A stretch of 64,000 nt of DNA, from positions 372,001 to 436,000 of the forward strand of contig NZ_JAMZMI010000003.1 in NCBI RefSeq assembly GCF_024714475.1. Direction: 5' to 3'. The notes under the pieces are model-generated. The model saw only the letters and a program-made list of their open reading frames with translations. It was not told the DNA's origin and made no database searches. The position numbers were made by a program, and so were the translations under genes. Shown here piece after piece: positions 8,098 through 33,760 of this stretch. Within the stretch, counting starts at the first letter, position 1, and each line of letters opens with the position of its first letter. The DNA comes from Marinoscillum sp. MHG1-6. GTDB taxonomy: Bacteria; Bacteroidota; Bacteroidia; Cytophagales; Cyclobacteriaceae.

Positions 8098-8340
8098 GTT
8101 TTAATTCCGCTGGAAATAAGTAGTATGGTTCTAATTAATCTGAATTATCTGTATTAATAACCAGTAACCTTTGAAAGAGGTTTAATCCAAATTCAATACA
8201 GTGATTGTCCAATTTTATTTCGCTTCGCAAAAAAAAAAAGATTTATGGTATCATTTTCATAATAATGGTCTTTATGACTATAAGTTCATTTGTAAATAAT
8301 ACTCGAGAACATCATATCAGCTGATAAAAATTAAATTAAG

Positions 8341-18411: not shown

Positions 18412-20466
18412 CTATCGAATAATAACCTTTTGGGTGGAAGTAGCCTCAGAAGTCACAATCTTAAGAATATATACCCCTTTACTTAGACTAGACAGATCCA
18501 TTAATTGTCTTGAATAAGATAGACGCATTTCCGCTACCTGTTTGCCCACCTGATTGTAGATATACACTTCTCCATTGTGATTGGTTTCAATCATAAATAG
18601 CCCATCTGAAGGATTGGGATATACATTCGTCTTACTCCCTTCAGGGTTGGTCGTAAGAGGTATCTCGGGGACACCCCCCTGCTCAATGTCAACATAAACT
18701 ATTTTCCCGGTCTGAGTCTTAAAGGCTATTTGATCGTTCCTGATCTCTGATGTCAGATTAGCTTTCACCTTTATCACAACATAACCATTGCCATTACCAG
18801 AAGAAAACAGGACTTCTATCCAACTACTTTCCTGAACCTCCGGCACCCATCGGGTATTACTTTCAACATTTATCGTCAGCACCGTATCACGATTTGATAG
18901 CACCAGATTATCGAATTGTGTGTCAATTTTCCCCGCAAACGAGCGAAAGTACCATCTTTGACAATCATGATTAGTATTTGGCCACAAGTGCACATAGGTA
19001 TCTGCAATTGATGCAGAAGGGATTTCCAAAATTTCATCAATTGTAGAAGGATATATGATCAGCTTTCCATCAGTAGACGCTACCAACCTAAATTTCTGAT
19101 TTATCGCTCCGGTATAGCCATTAACAATTCTCACGCGATCATTATAGTCAGGACCTTCAGCTTCTAGATACTTTGAAGTGTCTGCATAATTCTGAATCGT
19201 ATACTCTCCTGTTCCTAATGCTTTAAACAACCATTTCTGGGTTTCCTTAGTTGAGTCTTGTGAATACTGATAAATCGAGGTTCCTGATTCAAGACTTACT
19301 CCTTCTAAATCCAAAAATTTCCCACTATTAACATTCTCCAGTGTATAGTAACCTTCCTCTACAAAGTCAAACGAAATCGAAGGCCAGCCATCCTCTCCCC
19401 ATTGCAGGAAACCAAATCCTAAGGTGGGACCTCCCTGATTGTTAGGTGCCGGATCCGGGTAATATCCATTAGGGTTATAATAATGAAAGGACACATAATC
19501 CTTTCCACTCTCACTAAACAACCCAAAATGACCTGGGCCATAAAAGCGGTCATCGAGGCCACGAGTATCATCATGCTTGAAGAAAACTGTCCCACCGCTT
19601 TCTACATTTTCACGCCTCATCAGGGCGCCATTCTTGTCATAAAAAGGTCCTTGTGGAGAGGTGGACCTTCCGATAACCATATAATAGGAACTACCAATCC
19701 CCTGACAACAACCACCTTTATTATATATCAAATAATAATAGCCGTCACGGTAAAACATCGCTCCTCCCTCACCTTCGGCATAATTATCTCCACCTGTCCA
19801 GGAGTTGGCAATGGAAATGGTTTGCCCTGACGGAATTCCGGTGATTGAGTCAATTTCTGTTACCATGATCCCATCACGATTGAATGACCCATAAGTCATC
19901 CATATTTTGTTATCAGGTCCCCTCATCATTGCCGGATCAATCGCATTGATTTGCCATCCCCATTTTGGAGAGTAGAGACCGATATCCCCCTGATCTACCC
20001 AACCATATTCAGGGTCATCAGGGTCCAGTGTTTTGTTTACCACCACACCAATGCAGGAATATGCAGTTGCCCAGACGGATGCGGAGTAGTAGAGATAGTA
20101 CTGCCCATTCATGAATATGATATCAGGTGCCCAGAAAAAACCGGCAAAGGATTCCGGACCTGCAACGTCATTGGTGTACTTATCTATCCAGGCAGGATAT
20201 TCACCAGGAGCAAAGGGAGACGGTCCATCAGTCCAGGTGACCAAATCACTGGAATATTTAGATGTGATGCCATCTCCAGTTCCGAAGATCCAATATTTAT
20301 CCTTGCATTTAATTATGCTTGAAGGATCGTGAATTCCGACTGGCCAGTTCTGAGCATAGAGGCTTTTAGCGTAACAAAAAACTATAATTAGCAAGAAGTA
20401 ATTACCTCTGATTGAACAGTTCAGAACTGGCATTATTGATGTGATTAAACCAATCATTATCATCAT
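18412..20466 (-). CDS. T9SS-secreted GH43 arabinanase-like enzyme with RICIN and BACON domains
   Basis: The 684-residue protein starts with a hydrophobic signal ending near SLYAQ. A start at the Met at residue 12 is also possible. The GH43 propeller (about 40-370) shows the base Asp in GIHDPSS (near 47), the pKa-modulating Asp in NAIDPAMM (near 176) and the acid Glu in EGEGGAMF (near 232), the pattern of endo- and exo-acting arabinanases. It continues with a RICIN domain (about 375-500), a BACON-like sandwich (about 520-605, with the SSWIEV motif) and a T9SS type A tail (about 615-684, beginning VYPNPS). The likely target is alpha-1,5-arabinan or a related arabinose polymer. It is the last gene of the glycan cluster before the sigma cassettes. 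Confidence 0.88.
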   Translation of the reverse strand: MMIMIGLITSIMPVLNCSIRGNYFLLIIVFCYAKSLYAQNWPVGIHDPSSIIKCKDKYWIFGTGDGITSKYSSDLVTWTDGPSPFAPGEYPAWIDKYTNDVAGPESFAGFFWAPDIIFMNGQYYLYYSASVWATAYSCIGVVVNKTLDPDDPEYGWVDQGDIGLYSPKWGWQINAIDPAMMRGPDNKIWMTYGSFNRDGIMVTEIDSITGIPSGQTISIANSWTGGDNYAEGEGGAMFYRDGYYYLIYNKGGCCQGIGSSYYMVIGRSTSPQGPFYDKNGALMRRENVESGGTVFFKHDDTRGLDDRFYGPGHFGLFSESGKDYVSFHYYNPNGYYPDPAPNNQGGPTLGFGFLQWGEDGWPSISFDFVEEGYYTLENVNSGKFLDLEGVSLESGTSIYQYSQDSTKETQKWLFKALGTGEYTIQNYADTSKYLEAEGPDYNDRVRIVNGYTGAINQKFRLVASTDGKLIIYPSTIDEILEIPSASIADTYVHLWPNTNHDCQRWYFRSFAGKIDTQFDNLVLSNRDTVLTINVESNTRWVPEVQESSWIEVLFSSGNGNGYVVIKVKANLTSEIRNDQIAFKTQTGKIVYVDIEQGGVPEIPLTTNPEGSKTNVYPNPSDGLFMIETNHNGEVYIYNQVGKQVAEMRLSYSRQLMDLSSLSKGVYILKIVTSEATSTQKVIIR

Positions 20467-20884
20467 ATTTAACCCAGAAACAGGGACTTTAAAAATTAAA
20501 TTTCCCTAGCAATCCAAAAAAACAGGGAATTAACCATAAACAATTGTTCTCATATGGCCTGACTTGGCAAATAATATGCTCTTCAAAGTTGGCTAACTTA
20601 CTGCTAGCAAAACAAATCCGTTCAACTCTGAGCTAAAAACAAATCCTGCGAAATGATTTCACAGGATTTGTTACAACCTATATTTATATAAGAGAGTCGA
20701 TCGTCGTTACTTGGTTATTAACCAATTGAATGCTCACAGTTTAGTTTCATAAAGTTGCCATTTCATTTAGACAAAACTCAATCCAAAGCTGTCGCTTTAC
20801 ACCCAGAAACGCAGTCTCAGGACTACTAAAAAATTAATCTTCGTGTATAACGTTCAATATTCGGGAAGAAACTATTGATAAACC
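20467..20884. other. Intergenic stretch between GH43 and first sigma cassette
   Basis: No credible coding region is seen in these 418 bases. They contain the terminator at 20641-20669 and otherwise AT-rich sequence. The promoter of the downstream GH43 gene should lie near 20470-20600 but no clear -33/-7 pair was found. Confidence 0.6.
20641..20669 (-). terminator. Hairpin terminator of the first sigma cassette
   Basis: The arms AAATCCTG and CAGGATTT form an 8-bp stem that extends, past one mismatch, through GAAAT/ATTTC. The element matches the terminator at 23961-23989 at 26 of 29 positions and marks the end of the RICIN-zincin transcript. Confidence 0.8.
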
Positions 20885-21964
20885 TCAATAAATGCCATCC
20901 ATTACCATTGCCGAGACAATTTCAGAATGTCTATCTGCATTCACTTCCGAAAACTCATTATTGTAATTCAAACCGTATGGCCAAAAATGTCCGCCTCCGG
21001 TCCCGATATTGGCATCTACCCCATCATAGATTTCTATGAGTGCATTGGTATTCACTCCATTGAAAACACCACCTTCGCCAACAAATGTATCCCATTTCCA
21101 CGAAGTACCCACTCCATAAGTATGAGCAATTTCATGCAAAGCACATCTCTCATTTTGAAAATTTGGATCAGGTCCAAATCGGATATGACCATTGATATTA
21201 GCATCTGCTGTCTGCACCCCTGTATTATACTCGACAGTTAGGGTTCGAGACCACCAGGGTGCATGAAGGTTGTATCTGGATACAGCCGCGTTCATAGCAT
21301 CTTCAATTCTTTGCTTGGCATCTATAGGAACACCAGTGGATACCCAGGTCCAGTCTAACTGTCCATTAGCAGAACCACCTGCGCCTGAGGTAAAATACCA
21401 CTGTTGATTGGTTCCTCCTGTGGCTTCCCACTGCGCTATGTTAGCTCCATCCAAAGGTGATACACCCCAAACATCCAGGTCTTTACCGCTGAGTCTGTTA
21501 ACAATTCTATAGTTACCATTCCCAAGATCAACAATTTCCCATTGTTGCTCATATCCGTTGCTTATGGTTGCCTGAACTATGTTTCCACCATTATCCAGAC
21601 TCGCCCCGTCAACAGCCAATGCCAATGAACTATGTTGAGAAACGATAGAATAAAAACCTTCACTGTTGTAAGTAAATGCCCAACTTTGATTAGAACCATT
21701 TGTAGCGGTCCATTGCCATACGTTTCCTCCATCTTCAGAAGACCAGTACGCCACATCCAGCACTTTACCACTGTGACTACTTACAATGGTATAGTTCCCA
21801 TTGGCAATTGGCTGATTTGAAGTTTTAGGACCTTTTCCCGGCGGAGGAGGACTGGATAAATCCAGGGACTCTTCAGATGATGGTAAATTGTTCTCCTCTT
21901 GACAACTAAACATTGCCAATACTGAAAACAAGATAATAAACACTTTCAATTGTTGTTTTAACAT
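20885..21964 (-). CDS. RICIN-zincin lipoprotein, cargo of sigma cassette A
   Basis: The 359-residue product has a lipoprotein signal ending at Cys21 (LAMFSC), a proline- and glycine-rich linker, a RICIN beta-trefoil domain (about 55-190, with repeated QQW motifs) and a C-terminal zincin-like domain with HEIAHTYG near residues 276-283. It resembles the protein at 2862-3998 from the lectin to the C-terminus, including the FWPYGLN and RHSEIVSAMV stretches. The difference is context: a sigma factor gene lies directly upstream, and a 41-base box and structured leader shared with the gene at 24088-27744 lie between them. Surface-anchored glycan binding plus proteolysis is the best guess. The peptidase activity and substrate are unproven. 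Confidence 0.82.
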   Translation of the reverse strand: MLKQQLKVFIILFSVLAMFSCQEENNLPSSEESLDLSSPPPPGKGPKTSNQPIANGNYTIVSSHSGKVLDVAYWSSEDGGNVWQWTATNGSNQSWAFTYNSEGFYSIVSQHSSLALAVDGASLDNGGNIVQATISNGYEQQWEIVDLGNGNYRIVNRLSGKDLDVWGVSPLDGANIAQWEATGGTNQQWYFTSGAGGSANGQLDWTWVSTGVPIDAKQRIEDAMNAAVSRYNLHAPWWSRTLTVEYNTGVQTADANINGHIRFGPDPNFQNERCALHEIAHTYGVGTSWKWDTFVGEGGVFNGVNTNALIEIYDGVDANIGTGGGHFWPYGLNYNNEFSEVNADRHSEIVSAMVMDGIY

Positions 21965-21971
21965 GTTTTTG

Positions 21972-22035
21972 GATTAGTTGGGTACCAGCGCATATGGTAC
22001 ATTTAAATAGAATTACCCTGATCAGAAGTATGCGC
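21972..22035 (-). promoter_or_regulatory. Conserved 5' leader with candidate RNA helix (cassette A)
   Basis: The start-proximal half (21972-22000) matches the leader of the second cassette (27754-27782) at 21 of 29 positions. A 7-bp helix can form between the minus-strand segments at 22029-22035 (GCGCATA) and 21988-21994 (TATGCGC). The same register pairs in the second cassette with one T-A to C-G double change and one G-C to G-U change. This fits a structured mRNA leader. No known riboswitch class was recognised. Confidence 0.5.
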
Positions 22036-22054
22036 AGGGCGGTTACCTACTCCT

Positions 22055-22095
22055 GACTATCTATTAGCTTGAGTTTTTGCCTTTTATCTCATGTT
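22055..22095 (-). promoter_or_regulatory. 41-base conserved box upstream of cassette A cargo (candidate sigma target promoter)
   Basis: This segment is identical to 27838-27878 at 38 of 41 positions, while the flanking sequence on the sigma-gene side is not obviously conserved. Read on the minus strand it contains AAACTC and, 15 bases after its AAC, GATAGTC, loosely like the AAC / GTC core of ECF sigma promoters. It lies about 90-130 bases before the cargo start. I infer a promoter recognised by the adjacent sigma factors. Confidence 0.55.
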
Positions 22096-22263
22096 GGTCA
22101 GGTTTGTAAGACTATACCAAAAGCATGATTTTCATTCTGAATGAATTTTGGGCGTTGCCAACTTATGTAGGAACATAACTCGACATTCAGCTGGCCAGCA
22201 GGAATCTCTTTTGAAGTCAAATCAACTGATAAATTTCAATTTGCGAGGTTACACAAACGTGAT

Positions 22264-22914
22264 TCAGTATACAGGCTCGTGAAGAATGCCTTTCAAATTA
22301 TTAAGTGCGGTGTATATCAATCTTCTGGCTGAAGACACATGAGAAAATTCCATGATGTCAGCAATCTCCTTATATCCAATACCTTCATAGTAGTAGAAGA
22401 AAACGGCTTCACGTTCCTTGGCTGTCAACTGCTCCAAAGACTTATTGAGCTTTTTCACCATGAAATCATTGGCCTCTTCCTCAATGAAATTCTGAACACT
22501 ACAATCCTGAACTTCGATCTGAAACTCCAGGTCAGTAGGCGTTTGATGCTGAGTCATTCCGGTTTTAGTGATGTAGTTAAACAACCTTCTTCGGAAAGAT
22601 CTTAAAAGATAAAATTTGATTGAGGTGGTAGCGCCAAGCCCTACCCTTTTCTCTCTTAGATACAAGAAGAAATCCTGAACACAATCCTTTACCAACTCCC
22701 TGTCAGAGCTAAACTTCTTGCCGTAATTAAATAGTACATCCACATATTCCTCATAGATACGACCGAAAGCCAATTCATCCCCCTCTCTAAATTCATTCCA
22801 CAGCTGGGAATCGTATGATATTTCTACAACTTTAGCTTCTTTGGGATCGCTTACTTTTTTCAAGGTCTGTGTACTACTTGGTAGGTGATAATAATTTTGG
22901 GCTTGAACAATCAT
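22264..22914 (-). CDS. ECF-like RNA polymerase sigma-70 family factor (cassette A)
   Basis: The protein has a region 2 (GRIYEEYVDVLFNYG ... VKDCVQDFFLYLREKR) and a region 4 helix-turn-helix (LTAKEREAVFFYYYEGIGYK ... SARRLIYTAL), as in extracytoplasmic-function sigma factors. I chose the ATG at 22914 (start MIVQAQNYY), the first ATG shared with the paralogue at 28063-28713, giving 216 residues. A TTG at 22959 would add 15 residues that partly resemble the paralogue's upstream codons. No FecR-type anti-sigma gene or TonB receptor is adjacent, unlike most Bacteroidota ECF systems. The gene sits upstream of the RICIN-zincin gene with the 41-base box between them. It probably drives that gene, and the near-identical region 4 suggests that it also acts on the second cassette. 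Confidence 0.9.
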   Translation of the reverse strand: MIVQAQNYYHLPSSTQTLKKVSDPKEAKVVEISYDSQLWNEFREGDELAFGRIYEEYVDVLFNYGKKFSSDRELVKDCVQDFFLYLREKRVGLGATTSIKFYLLRSFRRRLFNYITKTGMTQHQTPTDLEFQIEVQDCSVQNFIEEEANDFMVKKLNKSLEQLTAKEREAVFFYYYEGIGYKEIADIMEFSHVSSARRLIYTALNNLKGILHEPVY

Positions 22915-23018
22915 AATCGGGGACCGTGTTGTTAACGTATTGAACTGGTTTAGCGTCAATCGGATTTGATCCGGGGGTTATTGACTATTGCAAGTTCGCC
23001 AGTCAACCAGAATACCCA

Positions 23019-23084
23019 CAGGTCACCATCGTTCATTTAGGGGGGAATTATCAGTACCCCTATTTATGATTGTGGTAAAAAAAA
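23019..23084 (-). promoter_or_regulatory. Conserved 66-base element upstream of sigma gene A
   Basis: It matches 28822-28887 without gaps at 57 of 66 positions. It contains a T-run, the minus-strand stretch ATTCCCCC and the block GAACGATGGTGACCTG. It lies about 105-170 bases before the sigma start and probably holds the sigma gene's promoter or a regulator site. It is not the same sequence as the 41-base box. Confidence 0.5.
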
Positions 23085-23350
23085 CAGCTAAAACACATTG
23101 ATTATCAATCTTTAACAGATTTACATCTCTTTTTTTAACAAATTAATAATCAGTCGAATAACAATTTCTTTGAAGAAAAATGCCGTTTCTCATGACCCTA
23201 TAGGAGTGCTTATCCATTTTGGTTCAGGAAAGAATTAATGAATATAAATAATCTGTTCGGGCATATTACCGACTAAAAGACTGTCTTGAATCAACGCATT
23301 AACCTTTCATACCTTTTAGGTGATCGAAAGAAAGACTTGACACCAATTAT

Positions 23351-23587
23351 TTACTTTTTATGGTCTGCACCGTTATCAGACTTAGTAGGAGTTACAGCTT
23401 TTTCTACCTCTTCATTCTCTTCCTGAGTAAGAAAGTCTTCTTTGAATTTACTATTAGTCAGTACCTCATCAACTTCCTTTACTTCTTCAGGTATTTCCTG
23501 GGCGCCATCCTTTGTCTCGTCGAAGTCCGGCTCCAAACGAATCTCCTTTGATTTCTTGAAATTGTTGTCTTCTCTTTTTTTGGACAT
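23351..23587 (-). CDS. Small acidic protein of unknown function (cassette A)
   Basis: The 78-residue product is highly charged, rich in Glu, Asp and Lys, with no signal peptide or membrane segment. I do not recognise a family. It is supported as a real gene by its paralogue at 29198-29404, which has the same position relative to a sigma gene and shares the blocks NFKKS, PEE, VLTNS, KEDFL and QEE. It is probably a soluble, largely helical or disordered cytoplasmic protein. Its place upstream of the sigma gene makes a regulatory role, for example as an anti-sigma or sigma-modulating peptide, possible but unproven. About 435 bases without a gene separate it from the sigma start, so it probably has its own transcript. 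Confidence 0.7.
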   Translation of the reverse strand: MSKKREDNNFKKSKEIRLEPDFDETKDGAQEIPEEVKEVDEVLTNSKFKEDFLTQEENEEVEKAVTPTKSDNGADHKK

Positions 23588-23720
23588 CAGTATTAATGAT
23601 AATGTCGAACCACCGACTGGAATTTTTGTTTTTCTAATTCAATTTATTTGATGAATCAATCCAACTATCTAAAAGTCAGTGATTTTTAGCACGCCCAATT
23701 GTGCTTCCTCTAATCTTAAA

Positions 23721-23746
23721 AAGAGCCGACCTTAGAAAATGATACA
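23721..23746 (-). promoter_or_regulatory. Conserved 26-base box upstream of small acidic gene A
   Basis: This box matches 29543-29568 at 23 of 26 positions. Both copies lie 134-139 bases before the start of a small acidic protein gene. The minus strand reads TGTATCATTTTCTAA at its beginning. A promoter or operator is likely, but no standard -7 element was recognised in it. Confidence 0.45.
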
Positions 23747-23960
23747 TATATTTCAAAGAAATAATTACTCTTCATTATCAATCATCAGATTGAAAGTTGC
23801 GACGAGCTCAATCACTAATATCTCATCCTCATAGAGCGTTGACCTAAGTAAGAAACTTGGAGTATTAGAAAAGATGAAACAAAGACAAGATCATTCTTTA
23901 GCTTTCGCTTTACCTGTTTTCTAAATGAACCCGAGGAACATGTCAGTCCGCACCAAAAAG

Positions 23961-23989
23961 AAATCCTGTGAAACAATTTCACAGGATTT
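23961..23989 (-). terminator. Hairpin terminator of the second sigma cassette
   Basis: A perfect 13-bp stem (23961-23973 with 23977-23989) closes a three-base loop. It lies about 100 bases after the stop of the large RICIN/LamG enzyme and is nearly identical to the terminator of the first cassette. Confidence 0.85.
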
Positions 23990-24087
23990 GCTCTAACCGA
24001 TATTAATGATAGCCTGGTTGATGGTCTATAGCTAGTAGTTTACTGGCAGCATGAAGGAGGTGCTAAAAAGCACCCCCCTTAACATGA

Positions 24088-27000
24088 TCAATGCTTAATA
24101 ACTCGCATTGTCCTGGTTGAATCTCCTAGCTTTACCCGTACCATATAGATACCTGATTTCAGAGCTCCCAAATCCAGTTTATTGGTTGATTGCGTCAATT
24201 GAGTTTCCATCACTGATCTTCCAAAAATGTCAATGATGCTCAGCTCTGCATTCAAATTATCTGTAGGTATGTCAATATTCAAAACATCCGTAATTGGGTT
24301 TGGATAAAGGCTCATTTCATTGAGAACTTCCTCATCTCCTCCCAATGAACCTCTCGCTCCACCATTCGTACAGGTGATCGCATTTTGAGTTTCTTCATAT
24401 GGCAAACTCGCATGAGTAACGTTGTCAACACAGAAATCAACAGTAACACCACCTTTGGCTGAAGAGCTTGTTTGGAAATACACAGAGCCATTACCATCTG
24501 TTACGCCAGATACTGCCTCATTCCATGTGCCACTAAATGATCCGTAAACGGTTGCACCAGATACAGGGTTATTTTGGTTATCTACCACCACTACTGAAGC
24601 AGAACCAAATTTACTTCCCTTTCCAGCACCTACTGTACCAGTTGTGATTGATTGAACAGCCATGTATGGATCACCTGCAGTAAGAACTGTTACATTGTAC
24701 GTAACATCGCTCACTCCACCACAATCATTTGTATACGTAGCTGTGGCTGCACAAGAACTGGTCAGTGTTACAAATTGCTCACGAGAGGTTCCTGAAGTAC
24801 CGCAACCGCTCCAGCTCCAGGATCCACCTGTAAGAGGTTGAGGGCCAAAACCAACTACATCTCCTTCATTAATGGTAATATCTGTACCAATCACCCACGC
24901 ACCATAGTTGATCTGGTAGTATGGTGTAAGGGTTGACCCGGCACAATTGCCAGAAACACCTATTCCTGACGAGGAAGTAGTATTTGCATCATTGTCAGTA
25001 GCCACTGCAGAGATTCCAAAATTGCCAGTGCCAATCGTCCAATTAACGCTGTAAGGACTTGTTGCATCAACACCAATAGACATTCCATCTACAAAGAACT
25101 CAACTTGAGTAACAGATCCATCTGCATCTGAAGCATCAGCAGTTATTGTCAGATTGGTGCCCTCGTCAAAAGAAGCGCCATCGGTAGGGCTGGTAATTGA
25201 CACGGTAGGAGGTGTATTACCAGTAGAAGATCCTGCTAAAGCGGCAATTTCTTGTGCTGTTAGTGGATAGTTATAGACTCTAAAATCATCTAATTCTCCA
25301 TTGAACAATGCATCTGCAGACCATTGACTTCTACCAATGTAGTTAAGAACAGGTTTGATATCTAATGGATTAATTGATACAGCTCCGGACTGAGCCACAG
25401 GTTGTCCATTAACATATAGAACTGTCTCAGAGGCACCTAGTGTTACAGCAACGTGAGTCCAGGTATTTGACGCAATTGAAGGACCTGTAAGAACATTGGC
25501 ACCCCCAGTGTTGTAAATATTGAACTCTACATTTCCAGACCAGTTATTTGTGGTCAGATACATGCTTTCATCCTCACCGTTACCGAAATCAAAGATTCTT
25601 TGCCAGGCACTACCACCTGCCCAATTAACCCATGCAGCAACTGTTATTTCTTGATGATTTGCTATATCGGTTGATAACTGCAAGAAATCTTCAGTTCCAT
25701 CCAGACTTACTGCCTCGCCTTCTTGGCCTGCTACATATCCTGGAGCACCATAGGTGGCTGCATGATTTAGATTTTCAGAGCCATCTAATGTGGAATTTTC
25801 AAAAGTGTAATGAGCAGTCAAAGTATTTGATCCGGTCGTAGTTGACGATACTTGATTAGACTTAGTCGATCTATTCAAAGATTGATCCTCAGCTCTCACA
25901 GCATAATAATACGTTTGGCCTGAAACTATTGTGTTGTCTACGAAAGCGGTTACTCCAACATTTCTAGCTATGGTGTTGTAAGGTCCGCCTGCAGATTCAG
26001 CTCTCAATACTGTATATCCTGCTACGTCACTATCTGGACTTGCTGTCCAGTTTAATTTGATTGATGCCGATTGACCAGTTGCGACTAGATTAGTTGGTGC
26101 TGCTGGAGCGACAAACTCAATAGGAGCTCCGACTGGAAGTAATCTCCATTGTTGGTCATAAGAACCATTTGGTTCCCATTGTACGACGTTTGCTCCGGAT
26201 GCAGCACTTCCACCATCCACAGCGATACATTTAGAGCTCTCTCTGCTTCTGATATAGAACCAACCATCTTCAGTATATTCTAAGTACCATTGTTGGTTAC
26301 CATATCCACTTGCTGACCACTGATCGATGTTCGCGCCATCATCAAGTATGTACCCATATAGATCCAGGTACTTTTGATTACTTGAAGCAGGTTGGATTTT
26401 GTAATAGCTGAAATCACCACCCACTCTCGAATCAACAGGGTAAACATTCCACTTTTGGCTATTTGCACCAGTATAATTCAATTGAGCAACATTTGCACCA
26501 TCTAGTGATGCTTGCCCATCAACACCCATCACTAATCCACTGTTACGATTTACGATGATATATTGTCCATCAGTGATCGCTGGTTGAATGTCTTCACCCC
26601 ATGTGATGTTAATAATTCTCTCCGCATTGGTTTGACCATCTCCATAACTTCCTGGAAGACCACCAGGCATTTCCAGTACAAATTCTCTAGTAGGGCCATG
26701 GCCATCATAAAAGACTGGACGGTCTTTCGAAATGTAGTTAAAGCTAGTAGTAACTGCTTGTCTTTCAGAAGTACCTCCAAAAGCCTGAATTTTGCCATCA
26801 GGAGCTCGGTATACTGCAGCAGACGTCCAGTTTGGTCTGTGCTCGGCATAGCCAATTCTTTGACCATCAAAAGCTTTCACCATTTCTCCACTGGCATAGT
26901 CAATGTCTGCCCACCAGATACCGGTTTGCATGCCATATTCGTAACCAACTAGAGCCTCTCCAATGTTGTGTAACTCATCTAATGAAGCGTGATGTCCATT

Positions 27001-27744
27001 TGCTCTTACATTTTGAAGGAAACTAGCATACCCATCAAAGCTACCAGCCAACTGGTGTGTATTTCCTTCTGTGATCCCTGCCGGAATTAGGAAGTCATAC
27101 CATCCCTGTGCTTCATCACAATTCAATGTGTTTCCGCCATTAAGCCTGATTCCGTTAAAATAGGGGTTAGCATTCAATAATGCTGTGATGTCATACATGT
27201 CTTGCGCAGATCCTTGTCCCCATCCGTAATCCGGCTCATTGAATGCCCCAACGGTGATCACATTGTGGCCGGCATCATTGAACGCTCGTGCTGATACCTC
27301 AATCAGTTGCTCCCATCTCTCCGGGAAGCCAACATACCAGTCATCAACAAAAGGGTGATCACAATTCAATGCTAAATCAGTGTTTGGTCCAACGTAGGTA
27401 TCGATTAGATATAATCGGTAGTTCAGATCATTGATTTGCTCTTGCGTAAGGTCCGTACCATTTACTAATGGGTACGTAGGTTGGAAAGAAGCACGAACAA
27501 TATCAATTTGGTCCAAGCCCATGAACAGAATGTTTCTGCGAAAAGCTTGTTCATTAGCCCATGCAAGATCGGCACCAAATTCTACTGTTTTCGAAATTCC
27601 TGGATCCGTAATGTCGAACGGAACAGTCCTGTCTGCAGCTGGTTGGGCTACCAGGTTGTCGCTTGTACTTGCTGTTTGCGCTTTGAGCAGGTTGGTCATC
27701 CCTAAACACAGCATCAACAAGAAAAAAGTAAACTTTCTTAACAT
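24088..27744 (-). CDS. Large secreted glycoside hydrolase-like protein with RICIN, FN3, LamG, Ig-like and T9SS domains; cargo of cassette B
   Basis: I start this gene at the ATG at 27744, which gives a normal signal peptide (MLRKFTFFLLMLCLGM... ending LLKAQ) and 1218 residues. The in-frame ATG at 27777 falls inside the conserved leader. The domains are a TIM-barrel-like catalytic part (about 15-385, with GAFNEPDYGW near 165), RICIN (about 395-530), FN3 (about 535-630), LamG (about 640-790), a bacterial Ig-like domain (about 805-895), a Cys-containing Ig/PKD-like part, a Big_1-like domain (about 990-1080) and a T9SS type A tail starting at LYPNPI. It is a longer relative of the protein at 5290-8097. 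The hydrolase family and substrate are not recognised. A sigma gene lies just upstream, as in cassette A. Confidence 0.83.
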   Translation of the reverse strand: MLRKFTFFLLMLCLGMTNLLKAQTASTSDNLVAQPAADRTVPFDITDPGISKTVEFGADLAWANEQAFRRNILFMGLDQIDIVRASFQPTYPLVNGTDLTQEQINDLNYRLYLIDTYVGPNTDLALNCDHPFVDDWYVGFPERWEQLIEVSARAFNDAGHNVITVGAFNEPDYGWGQGSAQDMYDITALLNANPYFNGIRLNGGNTLNCDEAQGWYDFLIPAGITEGNTHQLAGSFDGYASFLQNVRANGHHASLDELHNIGEALVGYEYGMQTGIWWADIDYASGEMVKAFDGQRIGYAEHRPNWTSAAVYRAPDGKIQAFGGTSERQAVTTSFNYISKDRPVFYDGHGPTREFVLEMPGGLPGSYGDGQTNAERIINITWGEDIQPAITDGQYIIVNRNSGLVMGVDGQASLDGANVAQLNYTGANSQKWNVYPVDSRVGGDFSYYKIQPASSNQKYLDLYGYILDDGANIDQWSASGYGNQQWYLEYTEDGWFYIRSRESSKCIAVDGGSAASGANVVQWEPNGSYDQQWRLLPVGAPIEFVAPAAPTNLVATGQSASIKLNWTASPDSDVAGYTVLRAESAGGPYNTIARNVGVTAFVDNTIVSGQTYYYAVRAEDQSLNRSTKSNQVSSTTTGSNTLTAHYTFENSTLDGSENLNHAATYGAPGYVAGQEGEAVSLDGTEDFLQLSTDIANHQEITVAAWVNWAGGSAWQRIFDFGNGEDESMYLTTNNWSGNVEFNIYNTGGANVLTGPSIASNTWTHVAVTLGASETVLYVNGQPVAQSGAVSINPLDIKPVLNYIGRSQWSADALFNGELDDFRVYNYPLTAQEIAALAGSSTGNTPPTVSITSPTDGASFDEGTNLTITADASDADGSVTQVEFFVDGMSIGVDATSPYSVNWTIGTGNFGISAVATDNDANTTSSSGIGVSGNCAGSTLTPYYQINYGAWVIGTDITINEGDVVGFGPQPLTGGSWSWSGCGTSGTSREQFVTLTSSCAATATYTNDCGGVSDVTYNVTVLTAGDPYMAVQSITTGTVGAGKGSKFGSASVVVVDNQNNPVSGATVYGSFSGTWNEAVSGVTDGNGSVYFQTSSSAKGGVTVDFCVDNVTHASLPYEETQNAITCTNGGARGSLGGDEEVLNEMSLYPNPITDVLNIDIPTDNLNAELSIIDIFGRSVMETQLTQSTNKLDLGALKSGIYMVRVKLGDSTRTMRVIKH

Positions 27745-27753
27745 TTCATTTTT

Positions 27754-27832
27754 CGTTAATTGCGTACCTGCACACATGATACGGTTAAAAAGATTGATGG
27801 TGCCGAAAGGTGTGCGCTAGGCGAAAAGCCTA
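27754..27832 (-). promoter_or_regulatory. Conserved 5' leader with candidate RNA helix (cassette B)
   Basis: The segments 27811-27817 and 27770-27776 can pair as GCGCACA with TGTGTGC, in the same register as the cassette A helix. A second hairpin, TAGGC / GCCTA around a five-base loop, lies at 27818-27832 and is weaker in cassette A. The start-proximal 29 bases match cassette A at 21 positions. Confidence 0.5.
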
Positions 27833-27837
27833 CCTTC

Positions 27838-27878
27838 GACTATCTATTAGTTTGAGTTTTTGCGTTTTATCTAATGTT
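27838..27878 (-). promoter_or_regulatory. 41-base conserved box upstream of cassette B cargo (candidate sigma target promoter)
   Basis: This is the second copy of the box at 22055-22095, differing at three positions. It sits between the sigma gene and the cargo gene, just upstream of the structured leader. A promoter for the adjacent sigma factor is inferred. Confidence 0.55.
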
Positions 27879-28062
27879 ACGTTATCCAATAATTAGATTA
27901 ACAATCAAGAGTATCAATTCCGTAGCAGGTGAATTTTAAGCGTTCCTTTCCAGGTAATGCTGACGCTTGCCAGTCATCCGGTCAGAGGAAATCTCAAATT
28001 GGATCTTGCGTAAGCTGGTTAATAACGACAGTTCCAATTTGAGGCTATATATCACAAATGTG

Positions 28063-28713
28063 TCAGTGCACAGGTTCGTGAAGAATATCCTTTAAATTAT
28101 TAAGTGCGGTGTATATCAATCTTCTGGCTGAAGACACATGAGAAAATTCCATGATGTCAGCAATCTCCTTATATCCAATTCCTTCATAGTAGTAGAAGAA
28201 AACGGCTTCACGCTCCTTAGCCGTCAACTGCTCCAAAGACTTATTGAGTTTTTTTACCATGAAATTATTCGCCTCATTCTCAATAAAGCTCTGAACACTA
28301 CAATCCTGAACTTCGATCTGAAACTCCAACTCTGAAGTTGTTTCTTGTTGCGTCTTTTCCTTTTTGGTGATATACTTAAGCAACCTCCTCCGGAAAGATC
28401 TTAGAAGGTAAAATTTGATTGAGGTGGTAGCGCCAATTCCTTCCCTTTTCTCTCTTAGATACAAGAAGAAATCCTGAACACAATCCTTTACCAACTCCCT
28501 GTCAGAGCTAAACCTTTTACCATAGTTAAAAAGCACATCCACGTATTCCTCATAGATACGACCGAAAACCAATTCATCCCCCTCTCTAAAATCATCCCAC
28601 TGCTGGGAATCGTATGACATTTCTACAACTTTAGCTTCTTTGGAATCGCTTACTTTTTTCAAGGTCTCTGTACTACCTGATATTTGATAATAATTTTGGG
28701 CTTGAGCAATCAT
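28063..28713 (-). CDS. ECF-like RNA polymerase sigma-70 family factor (cassette B)
   Basis: This is the paralogue of the sigma factor at 22264-22914. Region 2 (GRIYEEYVDVLFNYGKRF, VKDCVQDFFLYLREKR) and region 4 are conserved, and the last 66 residues differ at only two positions. The nucleotide sequence of region 4 is also almost unchanged, including silent sites. I use the ATG shared with the paralogue (start MIAQAQNYY), giving 216 residues. An upstream ATG at 28782 would add 23 residues and may be the true start here. No anti-sigma gene is adjacent. The gene precedes the large RICIN/LamG enzyme with the 41-base box and leader between them, so control of that enzyme is the likely role. Confidence 0.9.
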   Translation of the reverse strand: MIAQAQNYYQISGSTETLKKVSDSKEAKVVEMSYDSQQWDDFREGDELVFGRIYEEYVDVLFNYGKRFSSDRELVKDCVQDFFLYLREKREGIGATTSIKFYLLRSFRRRLLKYITKKEKTQQETTSELEFQIEVQDCSVQSFIENEANNFMVKKLNKSLEQLTAKEREAVFFYYYEGIGYKEIADIMEFSHVSSARRLIYTALNNLKDILHEPVH

Positions 28714-28821
28714 AATCGGTAACCGTGTTGTTCCTTTATTTAATTGGTTCGTCAATCGGATTTGATTCGGTTTAGTTTTCATTTGACTACTGCAATTTTA
28801 CCATTCAACCAGCATACCTAT

Positions 28822-28887
28822 CAGGTCACCATCGTTCAATCAAGGGGGAATTATTAGTATCTATATTTGTGATTGTGATAAAAAAAA
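28822..28887 (-). promoter_or_regulatory. Conserved 66-base element upstream of sigma gene B
   Basis: This is the counterpart of 23019-23084, matching at 57 of 66 positions without gaps. The rest of the 28714-29197 gap shows no gene and no comparable similarity to cassette A. Confidence 0.5.
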
Positions 28888-29197
28888 GTGCATAATTCGG
28901 CCTATTTTCATGTTTTTGATAAAATAACTTAGTTTTATTAACGATCCACTAACGATAAAAAATTGGAGATTACAAAAAGGGAAGTCGCTTAATCAAAAGC
29001 TCAATTTGAAGTTTTACCGCTTGGGATTTTGAAAAAAATGTGATTAGAGCAGAAAACCACCTGCAAATATTTAATAACAGTGAGGGCCTTTAGCGATGAA
29101 GCACACCTGACCAAGACAATATTAGGTACTATTGAAGGGGAGGGCAGGACGGTCGAAAGCGGGTGATTTAATGATATTGGACCTATCCGAATCAGGC

Positions 29198-29404
29198 TTA
29201 GTCTTTTTTAGAAAAAATAGCCTTTCGCATCTCGTCTTTTTCCTCTTGATTTAGAAAATCTTCTTTGAGGCTACTATTTGTAAGTACGCTATCTATATAC
29301 TTTATTTCCTCAGGTAATTCCACGATATCATCTTTTATTTCATCCAACTTCGGTTCTATATGATCCTCATCCGACTTCTTAAAATTCTTTCTTTTCCTGG
29401 ACAT
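29198..29404 (-). CDS. Small acidic protein of unknown function (cassette B)
   Basis: The 68-residue product is a shorter paralogue of the one at 23351-23587. Shared blocks are NFKKS, EP, PEE, VLTNS, KEDFL and QEE. It is strongly charged and has no signal peptide or membrane segment. I recognise no family. As in cassette A, it lies upstream of a sigma gene on the same strand and has the 26-base box about 139 bases before its start. Conservation of sequence, order and upstream box argues that it is translated and linked to the sigma cassette. Its function is unknown. Confidence 0.68.
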   Translation of the reverse strand: MSRKRKNFKKSDEDHIEPKLDEIKDDIVELPEEIKYIDSVLTNSSLKEDFLNQEEKDEMRKAIFSKKD

Positions 29405-29713
29405 TCTTTATGAGATTACCGAGAATCATGCAATCGAAATAAATTCCCTGCCTGTTCTAAATTAGACCCTATAAAAACAACACAAATTAGTCCTTTTAAC
29501 CAAAATTGAATGATAGACCTAAACATCATTCTTTGAATAATAAAGAGCCAATTTTAGAAAATGATACAAAAAATTAAAATTACTGATCACTTTCAATAAA
29601 AATCCAAATCTCAGATATTTCGAAATTGGTATCACTACCATAAATTGATGCGTCATTAACTGCCAACTACACCTGCTTCTCTGGCACCCGCAACCAATCT
29701 CTAATTTACTCTC
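29405..29713. other. Intergenic stretch upstream of small acidic gene B
   Basis: No gene is seen. The only notable element is the 26-base box at 29543-29568. The stretch ends at the stop codon of the haloperoxidase-fusion gene. Confidence 0.6.
29543..29568 (-). promoter_or_regulatory. Conserved 26-base box upstream of small acidic gene B
   Basis: This is the second copy of the box at 23721-23746, with three differences. Its equal distance to the start of a small acidic protein gene supports a regulatory role. Confidence 0.45.
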
Positions 29714-32700
29714 TTATCTTATTAATATTTTCCATCTTTCTGAACCTGATTGAAGGATATACAAACCATTTGGCATTTCCTCATCCAGACGGAGTGTCAT
29801 AGTTCGCGAAAATGTGTCATATCCTTTCTCAATCACAGACATCTCATGTCCTTGCACATCAAAAACCTTAAAGGACTGATCCTCGCTCACATTCCGTATG
29901 TAAATTCGGGAATCACGAGTAGGAACCGGATAAACCACAACATCCTCCATTAACTCATTGCTCAATGTATAGTTATTAAAATAGGATTCTGCCATAACAA
30001 ATGCTTCAATACCAATTTCATGTCCCAAAATACGGCCCGGTATATCATCTGCCGGAGGATGAATCCCTCCCCAAATACGCGATAAGCTGCATTGATCAGA
30101 AGCATCTCTATAGGTCGCCCACTGTAGGTGAACATCCTGACTAGGTCCTTCCTCAAAAACAAGAAACTCATTCTTTTTAGCCACAAATTCACCCATACCA
30201 CCGGGAAAGTATTCGCTCCCTGTTAATAAGGTCATCACTTCTGCCGCAGCTCTCGAATAGGTGGAATGACCAGAAACATATCCTGCAAAAGGCGGTGTAA
30301 CAAAAGAAGGGCGCTGATAGGGCCACCAATTCTCTGCCAGTATCCAGCCTACTCCCGCCTCATCTACATTAGGATCCTGAACATATTCATGTCCCCTCCA
30401 TGCATACAATTTAATCTTACCCAAATTTTCATTTCCCACACCCGCAAGAGAATCTCCCGACTTGACCACTTCTACAAAACCAGGCACGAGAGGTATACCA
30501 TTCTGGTGATAGTTGCTGAGTGTAATATCAGTTGACTGCCCATATTCAGCCATATAGCGTATTGCTGATATTGGTCTTATAAAATCGTACCATCCTTTGA
30601 CACCCCATGCGACAATGGCAGCATCGTGCATGGTCCCTCCTAGTGTAAAGTAGGCCTTGACATCCCACTCCAATAAATCAACAATTTCTCCTTCTCCTTT
30701 AAATTTTCGTATAAACTGAGGATGGTCAGTAACATAATTTAAAATAACAAACCAGTGTCCGGGAGGTGTTTCTGAGTCCGGACCATCCGCCCAAAATTCA
30801 GCTAGAACCCGAGTATAATCTCCACGAGGCACCATTTGAGAAATATAGGGTTGGCTAGTAATCGGATTGACAGACCTCCCTTTTCCTATATCACCACCCC
30901 GTTCTAAATCATAAAACTCTGAATGATTGACTATAGAGGTTGGCAATTGATCAAAATCAATATTTCCAATTCCTATTGGGGACACTTCCCACATAACACC
31001 ATCATAAGGATCTAAATGTGAACTCCACATGGATACCAAAAGAAAATTCCATTTGTATAAATCCATTTCACCCGCAGCTATCTTTTGCTGGCGATGACTC
31101 GGAGGAGGGCCCGGATCATGATACACGACATACTCACCTCCGTCCCTCGAAAATGTACTGGCATCGGCCTTTGAGAGAGAGAAGGGATAAACTACCCCCC
31201 ACTCCGGACTTAAGAAAGAAGGCGTCTTTCCCTCAACAACATTGCCTGCCTGATCAATAAAGACATCAAGCGTCAACGGCTGCCAGTGATTCGGATCAAT
31301 AATATTTGGATTACCGGGTAGGACCGGCACCAGGGGCTCGTTTCTAGGTTGATAATATTGGTTCGCATAACCGGAAGTTTCATTCGCCCTGTCGATGAAC
31401 CCATACTCGATCAACGATTGTCCAATAAAATTTCCAAGCGCAGCCGGATCTCCACTAGAATAATTCGTACTCTTGAAACTCTTGTCAAGACCAAGCAATG
31501 TCATCAGATCATCAAACCTCTGTTGTGTAACCGCTTGATTAGGCGAATTTTTAAAACGGTGAGTTAGCAATCGATAAGCAGCAAAACTGATGGCTGTTGA
31601 CATGGCTGTTGAATCATCAACTTCCGATTCAAACCCGTTGAACTGATTATTATAGTTGTATAACTGCTTTCCAATTAAATAAGGTGTGGCACTCTCATTG
31701 AACAGAGCCCAGGCATCGTACATGGCCACGCTTGCATGAAAAAGGTTTCTTGCGTGAACGGTAGGACGTGCGTAATCCTTACGTATGGCTGCCAATAATG
31801 CCTCATTCCAGAGTCTGGCTATCGATTTACTCTCAAGAGCTAACTGACCACTCAAATTAACTTCAAGTGTTACCGGCAAGCTACTGCAATTACCCATCTC
31901 GGTGACCGTAACAGTGCCCTTATCCGCAATATCCCATTCAACCTTTATCGATGCAGTTCCCTGCCCCTCAAGAATAACTCCATTAGTCACTGACCAGTCG
32001 TAAGTATGACCGGATGTCTCGGGGTAGGAATAGTCAGCTTCATTTAAAACTTCCACATTTATTCCTCCAGTAATGGATTTGCTCTTTAAATAACCACAAC
32101 CTCCATCATCCTGGGTAGCAGCAGGATTGTAATTGCATGAATTTGGATCCATACAACCTGAGATTTTATTACTGGTAAGATCCAAAGTATCGTAACTGGA
32201 TCCCTCCGTAAATTTTAAGAATGAATTGACTGGAAGGTTTGTGTATTCTTCCTTTATGCCCGATGGCCATTTGATAGTCAATTGATCAATATTTTCAACA
32301 TCTGCCAAACCAAAATGTACAGGTTGTAGATTTTGTGCCATGAGAGCCAACCCATTGTAATAACGGGTCAATACAGTGTCGCCGACACGAACTTTTATTA
32401 ATGTCCCGATAGCGTCACGATTAGAAGTAGTTCCTTCCAAACTCAATTGAACCCAATTCTTACTACCAGATGGATCAAGGTCAAGTTGATTTTCAAAAAG
32501 TTCAAGGTGATCTCCTGTACGACCAATAAGAAAATCCAGGTCTCCGTCATTGTCATAATCAAAGGTCACCACCCCATTTGATGATGATAATTCATCCATT
32601 CCAAACTCTGTAGCCCTGTTAAAAAAACCCTCAATCCCTGATTCTAATGTGTTTTCAAAGAAGGCATTCCGATACTTGATATTATAGCCATTCACAACAA

Positions 32701-33760
32701 CGAGGTCTAAATCAAGGTCATTATCATAATCAAAGAATTGAGTTCCCCAGCTCCATTTGGTAGTATCGACCCCCAAACCCACCGCAACATCAGCATACAC
32801 GTTATTTCCTAAATTTTTAAACAAAGAATTCTCGTCTATGGTAGTAATGTAGAAATCCAGAAGCTCATCATTGTTGTAATCCCCAAGAGTAAAGCCCATC
32901 CCCTCTTTGTTGATATCTTTCAAGCCATAAAACTCAGCACTATCTATAAAAAAAGTTCCTGAGTCATTAATGTAAAGCTGATTTGGAAGATCAAAATCGG
33001 TAACAATATATAAATCCTGAAACCCGTCCTTATTGATATCCCAGGGCACTGCCATCCAGGAAGCCGATCCTGACCCAGTTAAACCAACATTCTCAGAATA
33101 CTCCGAAAATGAGCCATCACCATTATTTTTATAAAAAAATTTCTCTGAACAGCTATACAGTTTGGTTACATAAAGATCTAAATAAGAGTCATTATTAAAA
33201 TCAAACCATGTCGCACCTGTTATATAACAACTATTAGTTAACGGTAGATTGGCTTCTGCGGTAACATCAGTAAATGTTCCATTCCCATTGTTATGGTAGA
33301 GTTCAAAATAATAGACATTCGAAAGAAACAGATCAGGAAAGCCATCATTATCATAATCACCCCAAGAGGCCCCCATTCTTTCTCCAAAACCAGAAAACCC
33401 AATAATATACTCACCAGTATAGTCATGGGTACTGTTGATCCCAGACTCAACTGTTACATTGGTAAAAGTTCCATCATTGTTATTTTGATATAGCTGACTG
33501 GTTGCTGCTCCATTACCTGATTTCCATCGCGAAACTACAAACAGATCCAAATCTCCATCTCTGTCATAGTCCGCTACAGAGACACCATTATTATTAAAAG
33601 AACCCGATAAGCCGCTTTGTGTATGTATTTCTCTAAATCCCTGAGCTAATACTTTTGTGCCAGCAATCCATGGCACAAACAATACTAAACAAATACATAA
33701 ATTAATCTTTCGACCATTACTCTTCCTGGAAGATCTCGTCGCAGCAAAAACTTGTTTCAT
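29714..33760 (-). CDS. T9SS-secreted fusion of FG-GAP/ASPIC repeats with a vanadium-haloperoxidase (PAP2) domain
   Basis: This 1348-residue protein has a signal peptide ending near KVLAQ. About seven FG-GAP/VCBS repeats (DYDxDGxxDLF type) fill residues 60-440, followed by an ASPIC/UnbV domain (about 455-530). A Cys-containing MDPNSCNYNP motif and a PKD-like segment lead to a vanadium-dependent haloperoxidase/PAP2 domain (about 650-1255). Its vanadate-site motifs are present: K-x6-RP in KGWYDFIRP (near 1058), SGH in YVSGHSTY (near 1160), and SR-x5-H-x3-D in SRIWGGIHPPAD (near 1231). A T9SS tail (VYPVPT) closes the protein. Halide oxidation or phosphatase activity outside the cell is expected. 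Which of the two cannot be told from sequence. The fusion of the two halves is unusual. Confidence 0.85.
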   Translation of the reverse strand: MKQVFAATRSSRKSNGRKINLCICLVLFVPWIAGTKVLAQGFREIHTQSGLSGSFNNNGVSVADYDRDGDLDLFVVSRWKSGNGAATSQLYQNNNDGTFTNVTVESGINSTHDYTGEYIIGFSGFGERMGASWGDYDNDGFPDLFLSNVYYFELYHNNGNGTFTDVTAEANLPLTNSCYITGATWFDFNNDSYLDLYVTKLYSCSEKFFYKNNGDGSFSEYSENVGLTGSGSASWMAVPWDINKDGFQDLYIVTDFDLPNQLYINDSGTFFIDSAEFYGLKDINKEGMGFTLGDYNNDELLDFYITTIDENSLFKNLGNNVYADVAVGLGVDTTKWSWGTQFFDYDNDLDLDLVVVNGYNIKYRNAFFENTLESGIEGFFNRATEFGMDELSSSNGVVTFDYDNDGDLDFLIGRTGDHLELFENQLDLDPSGSKNWVQLSLEGTTSNRDAIGTLIKVRVGDTVLTRYYNGLALMAQNLQPVHFGLADVENIDQLTIKWPSGIKEEYTNLPVNSFLKFTEGSSYDTLDLTSNKISGCMDPNSCNYNPAATQDDGGCGYLKSKSITGGINVEVLNEADYSYPETSGHTYDWSVTNGVILEGQGTASIKVEWDIADKGTVTVTEMGNCSSLPVTLEVNLSGQLALESKSIARLWNEALLAAIRKDYARPTVHARNLFHASVAMYDAWALFNESATPYLIGKQLYNYNNQFNGFESEVDDSTAMSTAISFAAYRLLTHRFKNSPNQAVTQQRFDDLMTLLGLDKSFKSTNYSSGDPAALGNFIGQSLIEYGFIDRANETSGYANQYYQPRNEPLVPVLPGNPNIIDPNHWQPLTLDVFIDQAGNVVEGKTPSFLSPEWGVVYPFSLSKADASTFSRDGGEYVVYHDPGPPPSHRQQKIAAGEMDLYKWNFLLVSMWSSHLDPYDGVMWEVSPIGIGNIDFDQLPTSIVNHSEFYDLERGGDIGKGRSVNPITSQPYISQMVPRGDYTRVLAEFWADGPDSETPPGHWFVILNYVTDHPQFIRKFKGEGEIVDLLEWDVKAYFTLGGTMHDAAIVAWGVKGWYDFIRPISAIRYMAEYGQSTDITLSNYHQNGIPLVPGFVEVVKSGDSLAGVGNENLGKIKLYAWRGHEYVQDPNVDEAGVGWILAENWWPYQRPSFVTPPFAGYVSGHSTYSRAAAEVMTLLTGSEYFPGGMGEFVAKKNEFLVFEEGPSQDVHLQWATYRDASDQCSLSRIWGGIHPPADDIPGRILGHEIGIEAFVMAESYFNNYTLSNELMEDVVVYPVPTRDSRIYIRNVSEDQSFKVFDVQGHEMSVIEKGYDTFSRTMTLRLDEEMPNGLYILQSGSERWKILIR

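Follow-up and report, generated by a model that had tools for sequence, protein, structure and literature searches.

In Escherichia coli, the sigma factor FecI directs RNA polymerase to fecA, and sigma-70 transcribes fecIR (PMC9249621). Polysaccharide utilization loci (PULs) of Bacteroides commonly use sigma/anti-sigma pairs (PMC11501099, PMC12596196). We describe a locus with FecI-like sigma factors of the extracytoplasmic function (ECF) group in a 64,000-nucleotide window of Marinoscillum sp. MHG1-6 (positions 372001-436000 of contig NZ_JAMZMI010000003.1; 4.1 Mb genome). Two sister sigma genes, sigma 1 and sigma 2, each stand upstream of a secreted-protein gene (cargo 1 and cargo 2), and the two intervening gaps share a nearly identical 41-base box.

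As in the E. coli fec and Bacteroidota PUL FecI/FecR systems, a FecI-like sigma has a nearby target operon, here a candidate one, and the sigma gene itself has no box upstream. Unlike in those systems, neither sigma gene adjoins a FecR, TonB or SusC gene: the immediate neighbours are the cargo and a small open reading frame (ORF), within a setting of secreted lectin proteins and carbohydrate-active enzymes (CAZymes). Neither the FecR family nor a SusC/TonB receptor was found among 18 window proteins scanned with Pfam, which are part of the window's proteins. The box also differs from the GGTATC-type promoter of FecR-linked relatives. PUL24 of B. thetaiotaomicron (BT1877/BT1876) is likewise a CAZyme locus, controlled by a sigma/anti-sigma pair and with a mapped 5' end that lacks a housekeeping promoter, but an anti-sigma gene, BT1876, is present in it, and its description, as excerpted, gives no consensus for BT1877 (PMC11501099). 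Porphyromonas gingivalis SigP/PorXY similarly ties an ECF sigma to the biology of the type IX secretion system (T9SS); SigP regulates secretion components, whereas here single secreted-protein genes adjoin the sigma (PMC4800418). An ECF promoter class with CGT in the -10 region was proposed for another member of the Bacteroidota, Flavobacterium psychrophilum SM6 (PMC9723704); our box has GATAGTC instead. In a literature collection without most subscription journals, no listed title or abstract opening described a sigma that lacks FecR and is paired with genes for secreted lectins.

The two units lie in tandem on the minus strand with the same order: small ORF, sigma gene, gap with box, secreted-protein gene (Table 1). 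The sigma gene ends 168-184 bases before the box, and the cargo gene begins 90-93 bases after it. The box is where the two sigma-to-cargo gaps match best over 41 ungapped bases, with 38 of 41 identical. Among 500 pairs of dinucleotide-shuffled gaps, the best 41-base match averaged 22.8 and reached 27 at most. Windows of 41 bases in the sigma-to-box stretch share 15-22 bases, about half or less. Between the box and the start codon they share 23-29, which is below the box and above the sigma side. Given these flank values and the four-fold sites of the sigma genes (43/57 identical), the box is more strongly kept than its surroundings and than the duplicates in general. The preliminary description, made from the letters alone, had reported the box, its coordinates, its excess similarity over the sigma side, the 15-base spacing from AAC to GTC and a near-identical sigma region 4, and on all these points it was accurate. 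Over the last 57 codons of the sigma genes, 54/56 residues and the stop codon are identical, as are 160/171 bases. The preliminary description erred in calling the cargo genes unrelated, since both encode RicinB lectin domains (BLASTP 38% over 87 residues, E 4e-15).

Box identity could also be a functionless leftover of tandem duplication or gene conversion. Homogenisation is plausible here: the sigmas are 86% identical, and their genes share long runs of identical bases and 43/57 four-fold sites. The cargo side of the box, too, can still be aligned. A conversion tract running from the sigma gene into the box would not, however, spare the diverged sigma-to-box stretch, and a partial counterpart of the box exists in another genus. 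We consider a leftover very unlikely.

The explanation we favour, although its chances seem to us only about even, is that each box forms the heart of a local promoter serving the neighbouring lectin or enzyme gene and that the FecI-like sigma encoded just upstream guides RNA polymerase there. Once free, a sigma would initiate transcription at its own unit's box, under the control of some signal, and would probably also serve the box of the other unit, because the region 4 sequences are nearly identical. The unit of small ORF, sigma, box and cargo would have been duplicated in tandem. Exchange or rearrangement would then have altered the cargo genes, whereas the need to fit each other would have kept sigma region 4 and the box unchanged. 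Within the box, the distal hexamer is probably AAACTCA and the proximal one either GATAGTC or the bases directly behind it, an uncertain assignment. The flavobacterial sigma-A motif TAnnTTTG was not found in the sigma-to-cargo gaps. Sigma-70-type promoter-like sites in positions 20400-29800 (22 in all) show no excess over shuffles (mean 26.2).

We found the box core only at this locus. Genome matches to the 71-base region around box 1 are the two boxes only. A 24-base core with up to three mismatches has two genomic matches (reversed control, 1); each lies in a sigma-to-cargo gap and not at a random position. The genome scan that the preliminary description had proposed thus returned no further regulon members. 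The restriction of the core to these two sites led us to reject a wider box regulon and is better accounted for by a private promoter. A looser pattern of 18 bases, at most two of them mismatched, gave 27 matches against 10 in the control, and 42 against 31 in a genome of another genus that carries the nearest sister sigma (G132); its exact matches are the known sites only.

Sister sigmas are rare. We searched samples of larger groups, two from the family (196 and 390 genomes), one from the order (390) and one from the phylum (395), as well as one genome of the same genus and six of the genus of G132; the larger searches scored only seven candidates per genome. In the sample of 390 family genomes, an identity of 55% or more was reached only by sigmas of the Marinoscillum genome and of G132, which has two copies (L131 and L130), and the other searches, those of order and phylum included, added none that close. 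The nearest sister is the L131 sigma, about 60% identical and with the same recognition helix, HVSSARRLIY, as sigma 1 and 2. Among the best 80 matches of a contig scan, L020 is the same place as L101/L131. Downstream of the L131 sigma come a GH127-T9SS gene (GH, glycoside hydrolase family), a GH43-RicinB-T9SS gene and an alpha-galactosidase-like gene, matching two enzyme types found downstream of cargo 1. The gap after the L131 sigma holds a hairpin with a T run (by eye) followed by TATCAAGCATATTGATAGTC, and contains TCAAGC-N5-GATAGTC in the same register as the box. An 18-base box core, its length chosen after the match had been seen, fits at 15/18 bases, a score that 0/5000 shuffles equalled. 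In a second reading of the box elements, GATAGTC would be the -35 and be followed some 17 bases on by a -10, where unit 2 has GCCT in register. We consider it less likely and did not keep it: those bases are G+C-rich, and L131 misfits.

Before the small ORF and sigma of L131 lies a further short ORF (L131 positions 2288-2461) with a GG-SLLLIAGGAYG-KK-like tail, which we take to resemble small Bacteroidota proteins with C-terminal sorting signals.

FecI relatives offer a comparison for the promoter itself. Many adjoin FecR, and their gaps carry a two-part motif: (A/G)TC plus an A/T-rich triplet, then CT(T) starting 17 bases after TC. It occurs in 13/21 loci flagged for FecR (1.5 expected) and 4/15 others (1.05 expected). 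The flag was a crude text fingerprint: those four other loci (L111, L119, L133, L166) all have a FecR-like gene by eye, and one flagged locus, L107, has a SusC-like next gene. In L119 the motif match falls inside the FecR-like gene. We anchored 16 training promoters by hand, leaving out L124 (weak anchor), adding L111 and L118, and using neither the L119 match nor the second matches of L104, L120 and L133. Seven loci with an H(V/I/T)(S/A)SARR helix (L103, L104, L111, L113, L132, L133, L166) all have GGTATC, as GGTATCATT, before FecR. The nine with other helices (L115, L117, L118, L120, L121, L125, L126, L127, L129) have GATGTC, CATGTC or similar and never GGTATC; as several training loci are close relatives, these counts are not independent events. 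CCTT follows the hexamer at a fixed spacing in most of the 16. The hexamer changes together with the recognition helix, which suggests that it is the element read by sigma region 4. Such covariation would help predict targets for unassigned Bacteroidota sigma factors. From their helix, sigma 1 and 2 would be expected to read GGTATC. A motif match is lacking in 13/20 rows of the SARR class (sigma 1, sigma 2, L101, L130 and nine others).

Neither box matches the profile of this FecR-linked promoter (GGTATCATT, then CCTT at fixed spacing). Best matches to the seven-locus profile in the two gaps lie elsewhere and were reached by 45 and 25 of 200 shuffles; for the 16-locus profile the figures are 11 and 29 of 200. 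A segment upstream of sigma 2 had a profile score reached by 5/200 shuffles; it lacks TC at the anchor, was one of eight segments scanned, and is taken as chance among eight tests. The L131 site is the top match of its gap with the seven-locus profile, a weak match that 7/200 shuffles equalled. In layout it resembles the relatives in GTATCA-N15-TCTTTA and the box in TCAAGC-N5-GATAGTC. L131 thus looks like a bridge, and the box may be a diverged member of the same promoter lineage.

Several results weigh against a sigma-directed promoter at the box. In all seven relatives of this helix class whose promoter can be recognised, it has GGTATCATT, unlike the boxes, which fall outside the three best matches that the seven-locus profile finds in their gaps. 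With the 16-locus profile, the L131 site ranks only second in its gap. Longer box cores fit L131 only marginally, with shuffles as good in 46/5000 cases for 23 bases, 324/5000 for 26 and 199/5000 for 41. When whole control loci were scanned, at least 12/30 reached 16/23 somewhere, so the L131 match counts only by its place. The second G132 sigma, L130, has neither GATAGTC nor a good profile match in its 91-base gap. The box has only two copies in the genome, and its 15-base spacer from AAC to GTC is shorter than the 16-17 bases usual in ECF promoters. The interpretation in the preliminary description is supported in part. A promoter here that two sister sigmas share remains the best reading, and position, the island of conservation, the lack of TAnnTTTG and the partial L131 match agree with it; the description's reading of AAACTC and GATAGTC as loosely like an ECF promoter was not confirmed, as the boxes do not match the GGTATCATT of the seven relatives.

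The same mismatch would also fit a different role for the box, as the site of another regulator (activator or repressor) or another sigma, with sigma 1 and 2 acting on GGTATC-type promoters. The HVSSARRLIY-type helix is limited to sigma 1 and 2 among 15 ECF matches detected in the genome. Two GGTATC-type matches with at most one mismatch are intergenic and correctly oriented before CAZyme genes (GH30, window 8247, and GH2), and the site before the GH30 gene is a possible further sigma 1 or 2 target. They are, however, two of eight such matches, all of them inspected, and the reversed control also gave eight. G132 has nine against four in the control, with 0/8 examined correctly oriented between genes. 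The boxes, moreover, sit exactly between sigma and cargo and nowhere else, and the L131 site unites GTATCA-N15-TCTTTA with GATAGTC, suggesting one promoter lineage. We judge this role, the main rival, to be rather unlikely.

An upstream A-tract accompanies the site before the GH30 gene. The sole exact match to the GGTATC-type pattern in the genome lies before the GH2 gene, on another contig (G000:C11:351351-351378, L167). The L130 sigma precedes a long gene that by eye is hybrid sensor-like.

The box might also act after transcription, within an extended leader RNA element, if the transcript of the sigma gene reads through and the box and a stem in the 5' untranslated region (UTR) function in the RNA. 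Both units can form a possible 7-pair stem between box and start codon (pairing by eye), with one compensatory and one wobble change, and one fold pairs the GATAGTC end of box 2. Minimum-energy folds nevertheless leave most of the box unpaired, and the stem is present in one of four folded pieces. In L131, the hairpin with a T run parts the sigma gene from the box counterpart, as expected before a new promoter. A leader RNA element has, in our view, only a slight chance of being correct.

If the box is a promoter directed by the adjacent sigma, the locus shows how a surface-signalling sigma, stripped of its usual membrane anti-sigma factor and receptor, can become a switch with one target, a single secreted enzyme. 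The two sister pairs of sigma and promoter, with the third from another genus, would then be enough for a direct recognition test.

Both units, and L131 too, have a small ORF upstream of the sigma gene. Neither small ORF 1 nor small ORF 2 has an NCBIfam match, and they weakly match the last part of the FecR N-terminal domain (hhalign probability 35%). With a FecR N-terminal profile built from loci flagged by the text fingerprint rather than from a curated model, shuffles as good numbered 2 of 2000 for small ORF 1, 33 for small ORF 2 and 0 for L131. A FecR remnant is a weak candidate identity for the small ORF and a lead only. A broader proposal builds on it: a FecI-type sigma that lost FecR and receptor would form a self-contained sigma-plus-cargo module, in which a small soluble protein derived from the end of the FecR anti-sigma domain holds the sigma, the sigma reads a private box promoter ahead of one gene for a secreted lectin or enzyme, and the module duplicates and swaps cargo. 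This we regard as distinctly unlikely. Separately, both sigma genes have another conserved block upstream, at 23019-23053 and 28822-28856 (ATAATTCCCCC and the bases that follow), with a partial counterpart upstream of the L131 sigma; this block is a possible promoter or leader for the sigma genes.

Both sigmas pass the curated cut-off of the ECF superfamily model TIGR02937 (56.5 and 60.7 bits; cut-off 42.9). Their best-scoring model is TIGR02985, the Bacteroidota sigma-70 subfamily, although its cut-off of 126.4 bits is not reached (82.1 and 83.8). We took the start of sigma 1 at MIVQAQ (ORF open to 22959) and that of sigma 2 at MIAQAQ (ORF open to 28782).

Table 1. Features of the two units and one further motif in the window; positions count from the first letter of the window
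Feature	Positions	Strand	Remarks
Cargo 1	20885..21964	-	Pfam RicinB_lectin_2; lipoprotein-like start and HEIAHTYG zincin-like motif by eye
Possible 5' UTR stem, unit 1	21988..22035	-	Arms GCGCATA / TATGCGC; not in unit 1 energy folds
Box 1, candidate promoter region of cargo 1	22055..22095	-	Reads AACATGAGATAAAAGGCAAAAACTCAAGCTAATAGATAGTC; 38/41 identical to box 2
Sigma 1, FecI-like ECF sigma factor	22264..22914	-	Pfam Sigma70_r4_2; TIGR02937 above, TIGR02985 below cut-off
Small ORF 1 (78 aa), possible FecR remnant	23351..23587	-	Upstream of sigma 1; conserved with small ORF 2
Terminator-like hairpin after cargo 2	23961..23989	-	13 pairs, T run; terminator-like site scan
Cargo 2	24088..27744	-	RicinB, LamG-like, Ig-like and T9SS sorting domains; Pfam and TIGR04183
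Possible 5' UTR stem, unit 2	27770..27817	-	Arms GCGCACA / TGTGTGC; six pairs, in shorter of two unit 2 folds only
Box 2, candidate promoter region of cargo 2	27838..27878	-	38/41 identical to box 1
Sigma 2, sister of sigma 1	28063..28713	-	86% identity to sigma 1; Pfam
Small ORF 2 (68 aa)	29198..29404	-	Upstream of sigma 2; conserved with small ORF 1
FecI-relative-type motif before GH30 gene 8341-10656	8247..8274	+	GGTATCATTT-N-TCTTTA; GH30 by Pfam

Cargo 2 has a T9SS sorting domain that cargo 1 lacks; cargo 1 is read by eye as a lipoprotein from an SCQ motif. A hairpin similar to the one after cargo 2 is visible in the sequence after cargo 1 (20635-20680), and from these two hairpins each cargo is perhaps transcribed alone. 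Terminator-like sites in positions 20400-29800 number seven, with no excess over shuffles (mean 5.6, sd 2.9). Downstream, beyond cargo 1, lie genes for a GH43-RicinB-T9SS protein, a DUF6055 protein with a T9SS tail, an alpha-galactosidase-like protein, an IU_nuc_hydro-family protein and a fucosidase.

Elsewhere in the window, the protein encoded at 5290-8097 has an N-terminus that resembles that of cargo 2 by eye, together with RicinB, LamG-like and T9SS domains, and has no sigma gene or box beside it. The gene at 29714-33760 encodes a 1348-residue protein with FG-GAP repeats, ASPIC/UnbV and a vanadium-chloroperoxidase-like region; its C-terminus resembles a T9SS tail, scoring just under the NCBIfam cut-off.
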